From positions 903,372 to 935,910 of the forward strand of contig CP070765.1 of NCBI GenBank assembly GCA_020345645.1: a stretch of 32,539 bases of DNA, given 5' to 3'. The position numbers and the translations under genes were made by a program. This DNA is from Candidatus Bathyarchaeota archaeon. GTDB taxonomy: Archaea; Thermoproteota; Bathyarchaeia; Bathyarchaeales; SOJC01. The notes under the pieces are model-generated. The model ran no database searches. It was given only the letters and a program-made list of their open reading frames with translations, and was not told where the DNA came from. Shown here piece after piece: positions 7,158 to 24,280 of this stretch; within the stretch, counting starts at the first letter, position 1, and each line of letters begins with the position of its first letter.

Positions 7158-10100
7158 TTAACCAGCATTATTTTCGAAGACTTGGTCTTTCTTAGGAGAT
7201 AACTCGGTTTCTAGATATTGTTGGTTGTACAACTTCTCTACCTTCAGGACTCTCTCGGGTCCATCTACCCCTTCTCTTTCCAAAATAGTGATTTCTCCGT
7301 CAAACAATCCTAGAATACCTTGTACTTCTTCTGAAGAATGCATGTGCGGATTCATTACTGCAAGAGTCGTGAAACCCTTTGATTTGAGCTCTGGAATTAA
7401 CGAGTTCAGCCATCTTCGGGTATTCACTATTTTATGTTGAAGAAGTACATCTGAGACAATTTCGATGCAAGCTCTTCTCGGACCTTCGTCTTGTGTCAAC
7501 CTGCGAAAGGTAGAAGTCAATGCGATATTAATGCTAGTGAGGTTGTCCACGCCTTTCAGCCTAATTACGTTTGATGGAGCTTTCAATAAAGCAGCTTGAG
7601 GGTTGCATAAGAAAAGGAAAAAGGTTGATTGGAAACCTTCTGCGAGGTCTTCCATCCCCATCTTCGTACTCACATAGAAGGTTGTTTGCCCTTCCTTGAC
7701 TCCCACCTCCATGAACCTCTTTACCAACTGATCTCTTTCGTTGCATGAGATCGACGTCAATATTACTGAATAGTGCTCAGGTATTCCACCTAAGAGGATG
7801 CTGTCCAGCTTTTGTGAACCTGTACTAATTCGACTTGGGAGACGGACTTCTTCGATACGGATTGAAGCCACGTCGAGTTCTGAAGTCATCTGCTGACCTC
7901 TTTCGTTCAGATAGACTAACTGTGGTCTTAAGTTGAAAACACCTTCTTGGAACGTCCTTAGTATTAAGGCCATCTCTTCAGTCTCGAGTGGGGCAAGGCG
8001 TTTCCCCTTGATCCCTAGATTCACGTCTTCAGCCATACAAAAACTCGGAGCCTTGACGAGACTAACTCCTTCTGGTAGAAACTCTTTGACTCTTGTTAAG
8101 AGAACCGCTTCCTTACCGACGTTTGAGATCTGGAGTATTATTTCAAAATCTTCTCCCATTTTTCCTTTTTCATGCTGAAATTTCAAACTGGCTTGAACAC
8201 TTGCTTTCTCAAACTTCTCCAGACCTACGGCGGTTTCTTCACGTGTTGTAGGCGTGATAAACCCTGCGGTTGAAGACGCAATACTTGGGGCGTGAAGAAC
8301 TTCGCTCAGTGAAGTTGCGAGTTCCCTTTCTTCTTTAACAGTTTCGAGAAGTTTCTTTACCTGTTCACTTTTCTCGGGATGATTCGCTTCTAAGAAAGAT
8401 CTCTGTGAGATCTGTAGCACTTTCTCTGCCATAAGAAAATACCGTGCACGTTTGTTTGGATCAACCTCCTTCTTCCCCGTGTCCATATACACGTAGGCGT
8501 CGAATAGTCTCTGAGTACCTTTTGCGTATGCTGACGCCGCAGTGAACTCTGCCCGTGAGTAATAGTTTGCTGCGTTCTCTAGGTGTTGTATCGCAGCTAG
8601 GTACAGGGCGGTGTCTCTGGTGTTGGCGAATGCTGTCCCGGACTTCAGGGCTTTACAGTAGCTACAATTCGCTAGTGCTAACAAACTTGTTTGTTCGTCG
8701 ATAGCGTAGTCTTTCGCTTGCTCAAATAGTTCTGCTGCTTCTCCAAACTTGGATGAAGACTCCTTCGCCTCTGCTTCCATCATTTTTTGCCAGGCTTGGC
8801 AGAGAATGATTATCGGTTTCAGCTCTTCCTGCATCTTACTTGATCCTGAAGAAGCTGCTTCTTGGAAGGTGCTTGCAGCAAGTTCGTATTTCTCAGAACT
8901 TGACGCATGCTCTCCTTGTCTATCGAGAATACGAGCTTCTTCTAGGTAGATTCTTCCTATGCAGTACTGCTTTCTCGAATTGGAGACCTGTGCTAAGGTG
9001 GTTATGAGTCGACCTTCATCATTATCTGTTGAAATTTGGCGTCTTCGTTTTCCTAATCTAAGTTGGAGTCTTCTTTCTGTTTCTGAAAACAAGTCTGCCG
9101 CGTTTTGAAAATTGTGTATCGCTTCGGGACTTAGTTCGCTTCTACTCACGTCTTCAGCGAGTTCTAACTGAGCCCAAGCTCGGTAGTTGGGAGCAAGAAA
9201 TTTCCAAGTGTTCGTCGACTCATGGAGATCTGCAGCTCTCTCGTAGTTTTTCTTAGCCTCGTCAAATTCAAGTCTTGTATGACTGTGTCTTGCATTCTCG
9301 ATTTCATACCAGGCTTCCATGTAACGTGCATGTTCGCTATAGAACTCTTGAAGTTGCGGGATTTTCTTTGCTGAAGACTGATATGCTTCTGCGGCATTCA
9401 TGAAATGAGTCGCGGCCATCTGGTGATTTCCGATTTCTTCGTATCTACTGGCGATTTTCCATTGCACTTCAGCTGCTCGAGTTGGCATGTTTGCGTTGAG
9501 GAAGTTTTTTGCAGCCTTCTCATAGACATTGACCTCTTTTTTTAGGGCACTTTCCTCCCCTGTAGCTTCGTAATACTCATTGAGTACCTTACCGAGTTGT
9601 TCCTCGAAGTTGCCAACTGCTGCAACTCGAGGGAGCATTTCAGGATTTGCATGGATGTCCCTTTCTGTCATAGTGATCCCCTTCTCCATGTCTAATATTG
9701 CGGTTTTTAGAAGGGGCTCTTGGTTAACTCCTCCTGTGTGAACTCGAGCTAACTCTGCCTTAACTACCCCTTCGTAATATTTTCCGACCCCTTGGGGCCA
9801 AGACTCGAAATGGAACGCTTTGTTAACGATATCGTTGTATCGTTTTCTATGAATTAATGCTTCTTCGACTAGTTTCTTTCTTTCATCGTTAGTTGTCTTC
9901 CACTCTGAGTATGAATGGAGGGCTTTACTGAGGGCGTGAAGTGTAGAACCTAATGCGTCTGGTGAACCTGAACGCTTGGCATGTTCTAAGCCTTTTCGTC
10001 CAAGGTTCACAGCCTTCTCTAGTAAGGCTTCTTTTTCTTCTTGACTTGCATCTGTGATTTTTGATAGGTTGGAGTAACTTTCGGCGTAGAAAAGATATGT

Positions 10101-19583: not shown

Positions 19584-20654
19584 ATGAACGAGAAACCGAG
19601 AGTTCTGATGAAAGTCATTCCCTTTCTCCTAATCGGAATTCTAGCTTTCATTCTCTACCTGTATCTCTTTGTAGACATTCCGCAGATGATTCAAGTAATC
19701 CAAAACACTAACCTACTGATCTACTCGGTAGCTACCTTAATGCTATTTGTAGAAGCCTTCTTATTCACCTTGAGTTGGCGATATCTCCTGCTTCCGCTCT
19801 CAGTAAAAGTCCCTTTACGAAGACTGCTGGCCTACATGTGGATTGGTGTCTTTGCTGATCTTCTCATTCCTGCAGAGTCAATAAGTGGAGAAATCGCCAA
19901 AGTCTACCTTGTTTCACAGGAACCGGACGCCAGTCCGGGGAAAGTTCTCGCGTCTCTTGTTGGTCAAAGGATGTTGGGGACAATTGCTACTATGGTAACT
20001 CTTCTGATTGCTTTTACAGCCCTAGTAATGTTGAACTATCCACTAACGACGCTGGTACTTCATGTACTCTTGATAATCGCTTTCGCCAGTGTGATTGCTC
20101 TTGTTTTTCTCATAGTAGTTTGCATTCAGGAGGACTGGACGAAGCGGTTGATAAATAAGATTCTGCGTTTCTTCGAACTCATTTCGAGAGGGAGATTCAA
20201 AGCGATCGAATTTCGCTCCCGAATTGTCGAAACCTTGAAGGCTTTCTATAATTCTTTACGGACGTTTGCGTCAGAACCATCCAAACTATTAGCTCCATCC
20301 TTTTTCTTTGCCTTGACGTGGTTGGCAAGTATTATGGTTGTCTTTCTCGTCTTCGCAGCAATAGGATATTTACAGCCAAGTATTCCTATCCTATTCTTGG
20401 AGGTTGCAGTAGTCTCCACTCTCTTAGTTGGGATCAGGTCCATCCCCCTCGGCATTCCCGCCGAAGTTGGGCTTCCAGACATAGCTATGGCTGGTTTGTT
20501 CACATTATTTGGGATACCCCTTGACATAAGTGCTGCTGCAACAATTCTCACAAGGATTTTAACTGTCTGGATCAGATTTCTTATCGGCTTCATTGCGATC
20601 CAATGGCTCGGATTCAAGAGACTAGCGGAAAGTGGGGTATTTGGCAAAACGTAG
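19584..20654 (+). CDS. Lysylphosphatidylglycerol synthase/flippase-type membrane protein (UPF0104, AglD-like)
   Basis: This polytopic protein of 356 residues has about eight hydrophobic helices and no soluble catalytic domain. It matches the transmembrane region family shared with MprF flippases and archaeal AglD. Typical features are the PAESISGEIAKVYLVS and GKVLASLVGQRMLG stretches in the first half and GIPAEVGLPDIAMAGLFTLFGIP late in the protein. A role in lipid or glycolipid handling is inferred from the family. ATG 19584 is chosen because the TATA box at 19551-19560 places the transcript start there; ATG 19569 is in frame and possible if pyrG transcripts read through. It overlaps the next gene by about 20 nt. 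Confidence 0.8.
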   Translation: MNEKPRVLMKVIPFLLIGILAFILYLYLFVDIPQMIQVIQNTNLLIYSVATLMLFVEAFLFTLSWRYLLLPLSVKVPLRRLLAYMWIGVFADLLIPAESISGEIAKVYLVSQEPDASPGKVLASLVGQRMLGTIATMVTLLIAFTALVMLNYPLTTLVLHVLLIIAFASVIALVFLIVVCIQEDWTKRLINKILRFFELISRGRFKAIEFRSRIVETLKAFYNSLRTFASEPSKLLAPSFFFALTWLASIMVVFLVFAAIGYLQPSIPILFLEVAVVSTLLVGIRSIPLGIPAEVGLPDIAMAGLFTLFGIPLDISAAATILTRILTVWIRFLIGFIAIQWLGFKRLAESGVFGKT

Positions 20655-21987
20655 GACTCGATACGAGATCTATGCAGATCTCCTAGACATCGTAGCTAGA
20701 AAAGGAGCTTGTAGGCTCACGAGAGCCTCCTACGGTGCCAATCTGCCCGTTGATAGAGCAAAGAAGTCTATGCGGTTTCTTGCTCTTCGCGGGTTTCTTA
20801 AAGCAGAGGATTTTGAGGATTCAAAACTCTATAAAATTACAAAACGTGGTCTTGAGTACTTAGAAACCTTCAGACAGATGCGCCGCCTTTTCGCTGCACT
20901 CGATGAGAAGATAATTCCTACACCTCCTACGATTTCTTCACCACCAATAAACATCCATGTACAACTTTCCTGTCCATCCATCGAAGTAACTGCGGGTGAA
21001 GACGTACCCGTTTTGATCGAGATCTCTAACGTTGGGGAAAAATCGGTTGTTATATCTAGAATCGAAGACGCTGTTCCTCCTGGCTTTGGAGTTTCAGAGA
21101 AACCTGATTTTAGCCAAATTCAAGGGGGGACTCTTGACTTAAAGGGAAGAATGCTCCCTCCACAGTCCGTACAGGAGATCAAGCTTATGGTGAGAAGCTA
21201 CACGAAAGGGACCTCAACAGTAAACCCGAAAGTCATCATCGAGGACGATGCAGGGCGACACACAATATTGGAACCAGAACCAGTTGCCCTGCAAGTCCTT
21301 GCAGGTTTATCTCACCGTGTTGGAACCGGATATAGCGACCTTGACCGTCTGCTCAATGGTGGAATCCCCGAACTATATGCAGTCATTTTCACATCAATTT
21401 CGTGTGACGAAAAAGACCTCCTTCTCAGACGGTTCTTGGAAGACGGAGTCAAGAACGATCAGAAGACTTTCTATCTAACAATCGAAGCAACTAGTGTCAA
21501 AGATCTTGTAGAGAATTTCCCATCCCGTTTCTGCCTATTTATCTGTAACCCTCAAGCTGACAACTTGATAGAGAACGCTCCCAACGTTTTCAAATTAAAG
21601 GGCGTTCAGAACCTAACGGAAATTAACATCGCTTTACGGTCCGCTTTCCGTGCCCTACCTCCATCGCAATCCAAACCGAGACGAGCTCACATCGAGATAA
21701 TCTCGGATATCTTACTCCAACATGGGGCGACTCGGGCACGAAGGTGGTTGACTGGGCTCCTGCCGGAATTGAAATCTAACGGATTCACCGTGACCGCAAC
21801 CGTTAACCCCCAAATGCATCACCCTGCGGATGTTCAAGCAATCCTTGACCTCTTTGAGGGAGAGATCACGATACATGAGAAATCGCAAAAGGGACGGGTA
21901 AAGAGGTATCTGAAGATAAAGAGAATGTACAACCACAGATATGTGGAAGACGAACTCCTACTTGTGAAGAACGCACTTGAACTGTAA
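20632..21987 (+). CDS. Winged-helix protein with beta domain and P-loop-less KaiC/RecA-like domain
   Basis: This 451-residue protein is predicted to be cytoplasmic. Residues about 5-82 form an archaeal winged helix (RRTRYEIYADLLDIVARKG, then ANLPVDRAKKSMRFLALRGFL and YKITKRGLEYLE), suggesting DNA binding. Residues about 100-220 form a beta-sandwich (VLIEISNVGEKSVVISRIEDAVPPGF). Residues about 225-440 form a KaiC-like core in which the P-loop position reads TSISCDEKDLL instead of GGPGTGKT. The last two domains match the C-terminus of the 7158-11111 protein. It could be a nucleotide-independent or ligand-sensing regulator; its target is unknown. The start is GTG 20632, or TTG 20641 (MAKRRTRYEIY); both overlap the preceding gene. 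It is convergent with the intact KaiC-like gene, 2 nt apart. Confidence 0.8.
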   Translation: MGYLAKRRTRYEIYADLLDIVARKGACRLTRASYGANLPVDRAKKSMRFLALRGFLKAEDFEDSKLYKITKRGLEYLETFRQMRRLFAALDEKIIPTPPTISSPPINIHVQLSCPSIEVTAGEDVPVLIEISNVGEKSVVISRIEDAVPPGFGVSEKPDFSQIQGGTLDLKGRMLPPQSVQEIKLMVRSYTKGTSTVNPKVIIEDDAGRHTILEPEPVALQVLAGLSHRVGTGYSDLDRLLNGGIPELYAVIFTSISCDEKDLLLRRFLEDGVKNDQKTFYLTIEATSVKDLVENFPSRFCLFICNPQADNLIENAPNVFKLKGVQNLTEINIALRSAFRALPPSQSKPRRAHIEIISDILLQHGATRARRWLTGLLPELKSNGFTVTATVNPQMHHPADVQAILDLFEGEITIHEKSQKGRVKRYLKIKRMYNHRYVEDELLLVKNALEL

Positions 21988-22985: not shown

Positions 22986-23063
22986 ATGCAGCATCGTCAA
23001 AGCGAATCGCTATGTAGATGGCTGAATCCTTCTATTACCTCGAAGGAGGATAGAACGAGATGA
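22986..23063 (+). CDS. Leader-type 25-residue small ORF coupled to the bactofilin-like gene
   Basis: The ORF starts with ATG 22986, has GGTGG 5 nt upstream (22976-22980), and ends with a TGA that overlaps the next ATG as ATGA. The peptide begins MQHRQSESLCRWLNPS. It has no recognised family. Its end contains GGAGG (23045-23049), which is the ribosome site of the following gene. A ribosome on this ORF would therefore cover or open that site, so it may act as a leader peptide. It could also be a chance ORF. Confidence 0.4.
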   Translation: MQHRQSESLCRWLNPSITSKEDRTR

Positions 23064-24280
23064 GTGGAAGAGCTGTTGCTCCTGAAAGCAAGGTTACATT
23101 AAGTAGAGTTGAAGGGGATTTAGAAGTCGGTAGGCGAGCCGTAATTCAGGGTGAGGGGTCGCCGCCTAAGATCTCCGTCTCTGGAACAGTATACACCGAA
23201 GAAGATACTATCTTCAAATGCAGTTTGTACGCGGAAAACCTTGATGGTGAGGGCGATTTAACTATAGAGGGCGATCTTCACCTTCAGAATAAGGCGAGTC
23301 TTGACGATGGACGCCTCGATGTTCGAGGAAATATGACTGCACAGAGAATAGACATAGGTAAAAGTCTGCAATTAGACGGGAACCTTGAAGCCAACTATAT
23401 CGATGTTGGAGGCAAACTTGAGGTGGGTGGTGAAACAGTTACGAAGAAAATCGATGTCGGTGGCGCATTTTCCAGCAGAGGGAAAGTGAAAGCTGATAAC
23501 ATTGATGTTGGAGGCTCAGTTGAGGTTGAATCAACTGTTGATGTAGAGGACATCGATGTTGGAGGAAAAGTAGAAGTCGATGGAGGTAAGATCGGCAAAC
23601 TCGATGTTGGAGGCAGCTTCATCTCGCATGGTCCATTAGAATTCGAAAGAATTGATGTCGGAGGAACCGTTAAACTCACACGTGGGATAGGTGGCAACAT
23701 TGATGTCGGTGGCTCATTGAAAGTCCAAGAAGACTTGAAATTCGATGATATTGATGTCGGTGGCCTCGTTTCCTTCTCAGGGACCAGCGAAGGCTCAAAC
23801 CTAAACGTGGGCGGGCAGCTTAAGGTGGATGGTGATTTGAACCTTTCTGGAACATTCGACGTTGGCGGAATTGCTGATGTAAAAGGGAAACTGAGCGGGA
23901 AAGACGTTAGTGTCGGTGGGCGACTTCGTGCAGGGAAAATCGTTGCTCAGAGTCGCGTTTCCGTCGGCGGTTCAGTTGAAACAACTGAAGGAGTACACAC
24001 AGCTCACTTCCAGATTGGAAGAAGAGGCAAAGTTGTCGGGTTCGTAAAAGCTGAGGAAGCATTAATCGGCAGAGGTGCACACGTTGCTGACATCTTCGCG
24101 AAAACTATGACGCTGGAACGAGAAGCGAGAGCAGAGAGCCTTTATGGTGAGAGAATAAGGTTAGAAAGAGGTTGCAGAATAAGTGGCGAAGTTCAATACG
24201 TTGAAGAACTAAGAACTGAACGAGACGTGTCCTTCGCTCACGAACCGAGAAAGGTTAGCGAGCTACCAAAGAAACCTTGA
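23060..24280 (+). CDS. Bactofilin-like polymer-forming beta-helix protein
   Basis: This 406-residue protein has no signal peptide or membrane segment. Residues about 110-305 carry about twelve repeats with the core I-D-V-G-G (variants LDVGG, LNVGG, VSVGG) every 16-18 residues, each followed by short alternating hydrophobic strands. That period matches one turn of the right-handed beta-helix of bactofilins, which polymerise into cytoskeletal filaments without nucleotide. Flanking parts (LSRVEGDLEVGRRAVIQGEG at the start; GRRGKVVGFVKAEEALIGRGAHVADIFA later) also look like bactofilin rungs. It is about two to three times longer than most bactofilins. ATG 23060 has an ideal GGAGG 10 nt upstream. 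Filament formation is inferred. Confidence 0.75.
   Translation: MSGRAVAPESKVTLSRVEGDLEVGRRAVIQGEGSPPKISVSGTVYTEEDTIFKCSLYAENLDGEGDLTIEGDLHLQNKASLDDGRLDVRGNMTAQRIDIGKSLQLDGNLEANYIDVGGKLEVGGETVTKKIDVGGAFSSRGKVKADNIDVGGSVEVESTVDVEDIDVGGKVEVDGGKIGKLDVGGSFISHGPLEFERIDVGGTVKLTRGIGGNIDVGGSLKVQEDLKFDDIDVGGLVSFSGTSEGSNLNVGGQLKVDGDLNLSGTFDVGGIADVKGKLSGKDVSVGGRLRAGKIVAQSRVSVGGSVETTEGVHTAHFQIGRRGKVVGFVKAEEALIGRGAHVADIFAKTMTLEREARAESLYGERIRLERGCRISGEVQYVEELRTERDVSFAHEPRKVSELPKKP
23395..23980 (+). repeat. Tandem ~17-residue VGG repeat block inside the bactofilin-like gene
   Basis: About twelve degenerate repeats of roughly 50 bp share a GATGTTGGAGGC-like core (for example ATTGATGTTGGAGGC and ATTGATGTCGGTGGC). 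The first eight are the most alike, with the core DVGG nearly invariant; later ones drift to NVGG and SVGG. The spread suggests expansion by duplication. Confidence 0.75.

Follow-up and report, generated by a model that had tools for sequence, protein, structure and literature searches.

A KaiC-family module with a lost ATP site closes diverse Bathyarchaeota proteins and is paired with an intact KaiC gene

We found a KaiC-family domain that has lost the usual ATP site, here called psi-KaiC, at the C-terminus of two otherwise different proteins (P0001 and P0002) in the window, the 32,539-nucleotide stretch analyzed here (positions 903372 to 935910 of an archaeal genome assembled as one contig of 1.51 Mb). 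Psi-KaiC is probably an adaptor or docking module that couples many sensors to one KaiC hub. The data on which this proposal builds are the fold, the loss of four ATPase elements, the conserved residues in their place, selection, a single origin, a mobile architecture and the pairing with KaiC. The most informative clue is an intact KaiC gene 2 bp from the P0001 gene, which was not part of an earlier, sequence-only reading of this DNA. KaiC-type ATPases have been proposed as central signaling hubs in archaea. A conserved dead KaiC module on many receptors, together with a fixed KaiC partner, is a concrete and testable candidate for the connection between sensors and such hubs, and the host lineage consists of abundant archaea whose signaling is otherwise little studied.

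The P0001 gene (20632..21987, plus strand) encodes 451 aa with a winged helix (wHTH), a beta-sandwich and a dead KaiC core. The P0002 gene (7158..11111, minus strand) encodes 1317 aa, in which a TPR/SNAP-like helical repeat array precedes the same sandwich and core; the SNAP match of this helical part (E 0.0012) is below the Pfam cut-off. Both reading frames are open over these coordinates. The sequence-only reading had proposed that the two proteins share a C-terminal module. BLASTP bore this out with 288 bits, 39% identity and 59% similarity over 414 aligned columns (E 2e-90), and the sequence patches quoted for it (CNPQA, IEI[IV]SD[IV]LLQH and GEITI) are present. The shared module of about 330 residues consists of an Ig-like beta-sandwich followed by a KaiC-type RecA core. 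In P0001 the sandwich spans about residues 107–224 (20950..21303, plus strand) and the core about residues 228–443 (21313..21960, plus strand). In P0002 the module spans about residues 967–1308 (7188..8213, minus strand). Pfam PF06745 (KaiC) scores over cut-off on both proteins (P0001 residues 230–432, E 1.5e-9; P0002, E 3e-8). The winged helix of P0001 (residues 7–86; 20650..20889, plus strand) is matched by PF14947 (HTH_45, E 9.7e-14) and appears Sso10a-like; the NCBIfam model Sso10a_fam gives E 2.5e-11, which is under the cut-off of that family.

An AlphaFold model of P0001 built with 74 homologs has a mean pLDDT of 93.4 and a pTM of 0.70, so the packing of the domains is less certain. The model shows the winged helix at residues 10–69, a long helix at 71–94 (secondary structure by DSSP), the sandwich strands at 108–223 and a RecA-type core. 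The top Foldseek matches in the PDB are KaiC-family ATPases, namely 2dr3, 2w0m and KaiC CI, with E of about 1e-12 to 1e-10 and TM scores by target of about 0.7 (0.73 to 2dr3 and 2w0m). PF06745 and the predicted structure agree on a RecA/KaiC-like core, and the model places a beta-sandwich before it, as had been read from the sequence.

We aligned 78 non-redundant psi-KaiC cores with the 28 intact KaiC partners described below (residue numbers are those of P0001 unless the partner is named). The partners show little or no variation in the P-loop GGPG[TA]GKT, in D63-E64, in the Walker B D144 and in a K-M-R finger with R224. In the psi-KaiC cores the P-loop, D63, the catalytic Glu (E64), the Walker B Asp (D144) and the finger Arg (R224) of the partner are absent or variable; partner K222 is kept as K or R. 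No core has the Walker A motif GxxGxGK[TS], and the consensus at its place is S-P-S-C-D-E-R-D, or [TS]-S-P-S-C-D-E-[RK]-D when the variable positions are included. P0001 carries TSISCDEKD here (residues 254–262; 21391..21417, plus strand) and P0002 carries TSISCNERD (residues 1119–1127; 7731..7757, minus strand). A conserved TSISC-[DN]-E-[KR]-D had been proposed for this site. Both proteins do carry it and C-D-E-[RK]-D is kept in Bathyarchaeota, but only a minority of copies has TSISC to the letter. The consensus of 83 non-redundant copies, which is also the commonest form, is TSPSCDERD (D 90%, E 98%, C 84%; Ile in the third place 12%). A normal ATP site would speak against the proposal and was not seen: the cores keep neither the glycine-rich loop nor the catalytic Glu, the Walker B Asp or the finger Arg. 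The absence of TSISC from other homologs, also named as counter-evidence, was found in part. The word is rare, while C-D-E-[RK]-D is kept in the class and replaced in two distant relatives from outside it (L191 and L192), which read FSDNSTLS at that segment and retain SD-x-LL-x-H, TRRWL and MH. Since even C-D-E-[RK]-D is replaced there, there is probably more to the functional center than the TSISC site.

The psi-KaiC cores also have conserved residues of their own. D359, W372 and H396 are found in 100% of the psi-KaiC cores, C305-N306-P307, S358, H364 and R370 are each above 90%, and D259-E260 and N/D392-P393 are conserved as well; the motifs CNP, SD-x-LLQH, RRWL and NP-x-MH are kept. The strand-end edge of RecA folds is their nucleotide-binding side. 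In the P0001 model four conserved motifs come straight after the core strands 250–255, 300–305, 350–354 and 385–391, so this edge of the sheet seems to have been rebuilt, and the replacement residues may line a pocket. We calculated dN/dS for four close pairs (the L029/L036 comparison was left out). The P0001 copy of the window and a 94% identical copy in its own genome give 0.063 (dS 0.44), and the other three pairs give 0.14, 0.052 and 0.34. Since the ratio is low in three of the four comparisons, the module is not decaying. Decay of a pseudogene is rejected by these values (0.05–0.14 in three pairs, 0.34 in one) and by the residue conservation. With the P-loop lost, its replacement conserved and purifying selection acting, a new function as suggested before is still the likeliest reading.

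That new function could be the binding of another small ligand, for instance a metabolite, a metal or a nucleotide in modified or cyclic form, in a rebuilt ATP pocket, which would make the module itself a sensor domain instead of a docking plug. In the model C258, D259, E260, C305, N306, D359 and H396 lie just past the core strands at what would be the ligand-binding edge. In one relative (L111) the core is followed by a class III cyclase domain, matched as an adenylate/guanylate cyclase catalytic domain with E 3.9e-16, which may be a link to cyclic nucleotides. Against this, many copies already have a sensor-type domain ahead of the core, and L191/L192, like several copies from Bathyarchaeota, carry other residues at the Cys and P-loop positions. 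We consider the ligand explanation unlikely, though the best of the alternatives to an adaptor.

Residual, non-canonical binding of ATP or ADP in a slow or non-hydrolyzing nucleotide switch is more doubtful still. It would use the basic residue kept at the Walker A Lys place (K/R261; R 63%, K 27%), although this place is Thr in 8% of cores, all loop glycines are gone, two acidic residues sit in the phosphate site and neither the Walker B Asp nor the catalytic Glu is conserved. Elp4, Elp5 and Elp6 of Elongator are P-loop-less RecA-like folds that act in a ring, and nucleotide binding has been discussed for such folds. PAXNEB/Elp4 is matched weakly at the sequence level (E 0.0024), and the scores for P0001 and P0002, 17.4 and 15.6 bits, fall short of the Pfam cut-off of 28. 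The Elongator proteins differ from psi-KaiC in partners and architecture.

The genome of the window encodes nine copies of the core and one further protein with the sandwich only. Thus the sharing noted between two proteins is correct for both, but the two are part of a set of nine. The 84,980 named genomes scanned gave 64 loci, each under the title Bathyarchaeota or miscellaneous Crenarchaeota group. In a sample of 251 genomes of the class, matches with E below 1e-100 occur in the order of the window and in one genome outside the order, and weaker matches occur elsewhere in the class. A sample of 398 genomes of the phylum added distant core relatives from outside the class (L191 and L192), in two genomes that belong to a single genus. 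All cores, including these two, group together in one clade (support 100/99) apart from active KaiC. This clade is deep, and a recent duplication of the neighboring KaiC is rejected as its origin. No match was found in a plasmid collection by tblastn. Two IMG/VR contigs (L189 and L190) encode psi-KaiC cores and may be virus-borne or host fragments; with only these two, a viral role cannot be argued.

Some 80 non-redundant Bathyarchaeota copies of the core cap very different N-termini. The companions include a winged helix with or without the sandwich, a TPR-type array with the sandwich, an AAA_16 STAND-type ATPase with TPR, and ATP-cone, FIST, CBM96 and WD40 domains. By eye we also noted a membrane region in L114 and a CBS-like region with the sandwich in L087, and L030 has two tandem cores. 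A regulatory unit read out by different partners, as the sequence-only reading had put it, is the likeliest interpretation of a module found with such different partner domains. L010 combines a TPR array and the same beta-sandwich with a C-terminal region in place of psi-KaiC that by eye resembles a carbon-nitrogen hydrolase.

The gene next to P0001 (21990..22748, minus strand) encodes an intact KaiC-family ATPase of 252 aa with the P-loop GGPGTGKT (PF06745, E 4.9e-58). The two genes are arranged tail to tail, the KaiC gene ending 2 bp from the stop codon of P0001. This genome has only two strong KaiC genes, and both lie tail to tail with a psi-KaiC gene, so that psi-KaiC and KaiC stand at 9 to 2. 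The second pair (G000:C1, about 1098269–1099636; L002 and L124) is 98% identical in KaiC and 94% identical in psi-KaiC, with dS near 0.4, and its psi-KaiC is interrupted upstream by a run of N. Defined by at least 61% identity, orthologs of this KaiC are found in 28 of the 251 class genomes. A psi-KaiC gene adjoins the ortholog in 24 of the 28, tail to tail in 23 with ORF ends 8–103 bp apart, and on the same strand in one. The remaining four are a gene at a contig edge (G117), a genome with KaiC alone and psi-KaiC elsewhere (G200), and two in which KaiC has no psi-KaiC neighbor and the genome no strong psi-KaiC (G181 and G242). In G242 a TPR protein akin to the N-terminal half of P0002 follows KaiC. 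Conversely, psi-KaiC occurs without this KaiC ortholog in G179, G238, G245, G247 and G121, though some of these genomes are incomplete. Unpaired genes of either kind count against the adaptor reading.

By our estimate, with nine psi-KaiC genes among roughly 1500 genes, chance would place a tail-to-tail neighbor of this kind in far fewer than 1% of genomes. These genomes do not count as independent cases, because conserved gene order is partly shared ancestry (vertical inheritance). The pair persists in other families of the order, where flanking genes such as CTP synthase and the flippase are not seen next to it. The N-termini of the paired psi-KaiC proteins vary (wHTH with or without sandwich, TPR) while KaiC is the same ortholog; thus the core is the element common to the paired neighbors. 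In L191 and L192 a canonical KaiC is the tail-to-tail neighbor of a distant psi-KaiC in a frame of 690–700 aa, and the stop codons of the two genes overlap. In G225 a second KaiC copy also has a tail-to-tail psi-KaiC gene, 656 bp away. Three points suggest selection on the pair: it is kept where its flanks are lost, KaiC is constant while the N-terminus of the partner changes, and the arrangement recurs in L191/L192. These points also weigh against a generic oligomerization domain unrelated to the neighboring KaiC, the gene order being simply inherited. That explanation takes in the facts that the paired genes are convergent rather than in one operon and that most psi-KaiC copies are not adjacent to a KaiC. 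It is improbable, as the pair outlives its other neighbors and recurs outside the class, and as G225 repeats it with a second KaiC.

A bactofilin-like gene (23060..24280, plus strand; PF04519, E 5.9e-14) is a frequent third neighbor. Most of the long loci in the order have it beside the pair, as a rule on the KaiC side, and in L034 and L040 it lies before psi-KaiC; it is a possible third partner.

The adaptor reading can be put as follows. Psi-KaiC would be a KaiC-family pseudo-ATPase, with the usual ATP binding and hydrolysis gone, that serves as a common transmitter or docking module at the end of different sensors and effectors (winged helix, TPR, STAND-TPR, FIST and others). It would link them, presumably by direct contact, to one shared active KaiC ATPase, whose gene has one of the psi-KaiC genes as its tail-to-tail neighbor. 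The nucleotide state of KaiC may then set the DNA binding predicted for P0001 through its Sso10a-like winged helix, and P0002 and the other copies may feed signals into the same hub; the direction of signaling is presumed. More tentatively, Bathyarchaeota could have a signaling network with a single hub, in which as many as nine different receptors read, or feed into, one type of KaiC through a plug of dead KaiC, perhaps in mixed rings of live and dead subunits. With the finger Arg lost, it is less likely that a dead subunit completes the ATP site of its neighbor in such a ring. No KaiC/psi-KaiC fusion protein was found around the unusual KaiC frames L196–L201. In L198 (1110–2994) a canonical KaiC directly follows a same-strand KaiC-like protein with the intact P-loop GDPGTGKT, and the pairing of KaiC with one of its relatives may be more widespread.

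Makarova, Galperin and Koonin reportedly proposed in 2017 that inactive KaiC homologs are also part of hubs. Dead KaiC domains in archaeal signaling are an idea already known, under the name iKaiC. PMC5847659 gives this name to KaiC-like domains of archaeal signaling that are inactivated, and cites Makarova et al. 2017 for KaiC-like ATPases as signaling hubs. Among the open-access papers searched we found none that describes the psi-KaiC clade. Like iKaiC, psi-KaiC has a KaiC fold with lost ATPase motifs, is fused to signaling input and output domains (wHTH, FIST, TPR, STAND and cyclase) and is proposed to be part of KaiC hubs. It differs in being almost wholly confined to Bathyarchaeota, in its own signature (S-C-D-E-R-D, CNP, SD-LLQH, RRWL and MH), in the beta-sandwich that often precedes it and in its conserved tail-to-tail KaiC partner gene. 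With PH0284 (2dr3), SSO2452 (2w0m) and cyanobacterial KaiC it shares the fold, the lead-in TG-x-x-x-LD-x-x-L-x-GG-x-P and PF06745, whereas it is without the Walker A, catalytic Glu, Walker B Asp and finger Arg of the active family. MEDS/DUF835 was rejected as the family, as neither P0001 nor P0002 gave a Pfam match to it up to E 1.

The Pfam domain of unknown function DUF7504 (PF24336) covers the cores of part of the clade. It scores over cut-off on L108 (1.5e-8), L047 (1e-8), L008 (9.3e-8), L106 and L041 and on three copies of the window's own genome, with P0001 and P0002 below. DUF7504 relatives share with psi-KaiC the His after strand 5 and eroded P-loops, but the psi-KaiC clade stands apart from them in the tree. 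The DUF7504-type KaiC relatives of the phylum (L169–L187) have P-loops at many stages of erosion (e.g., GPPIAGKR, GDPGSGND, GDPWSSKR and GETGSHYE) and form a natural series for P-loop loss.
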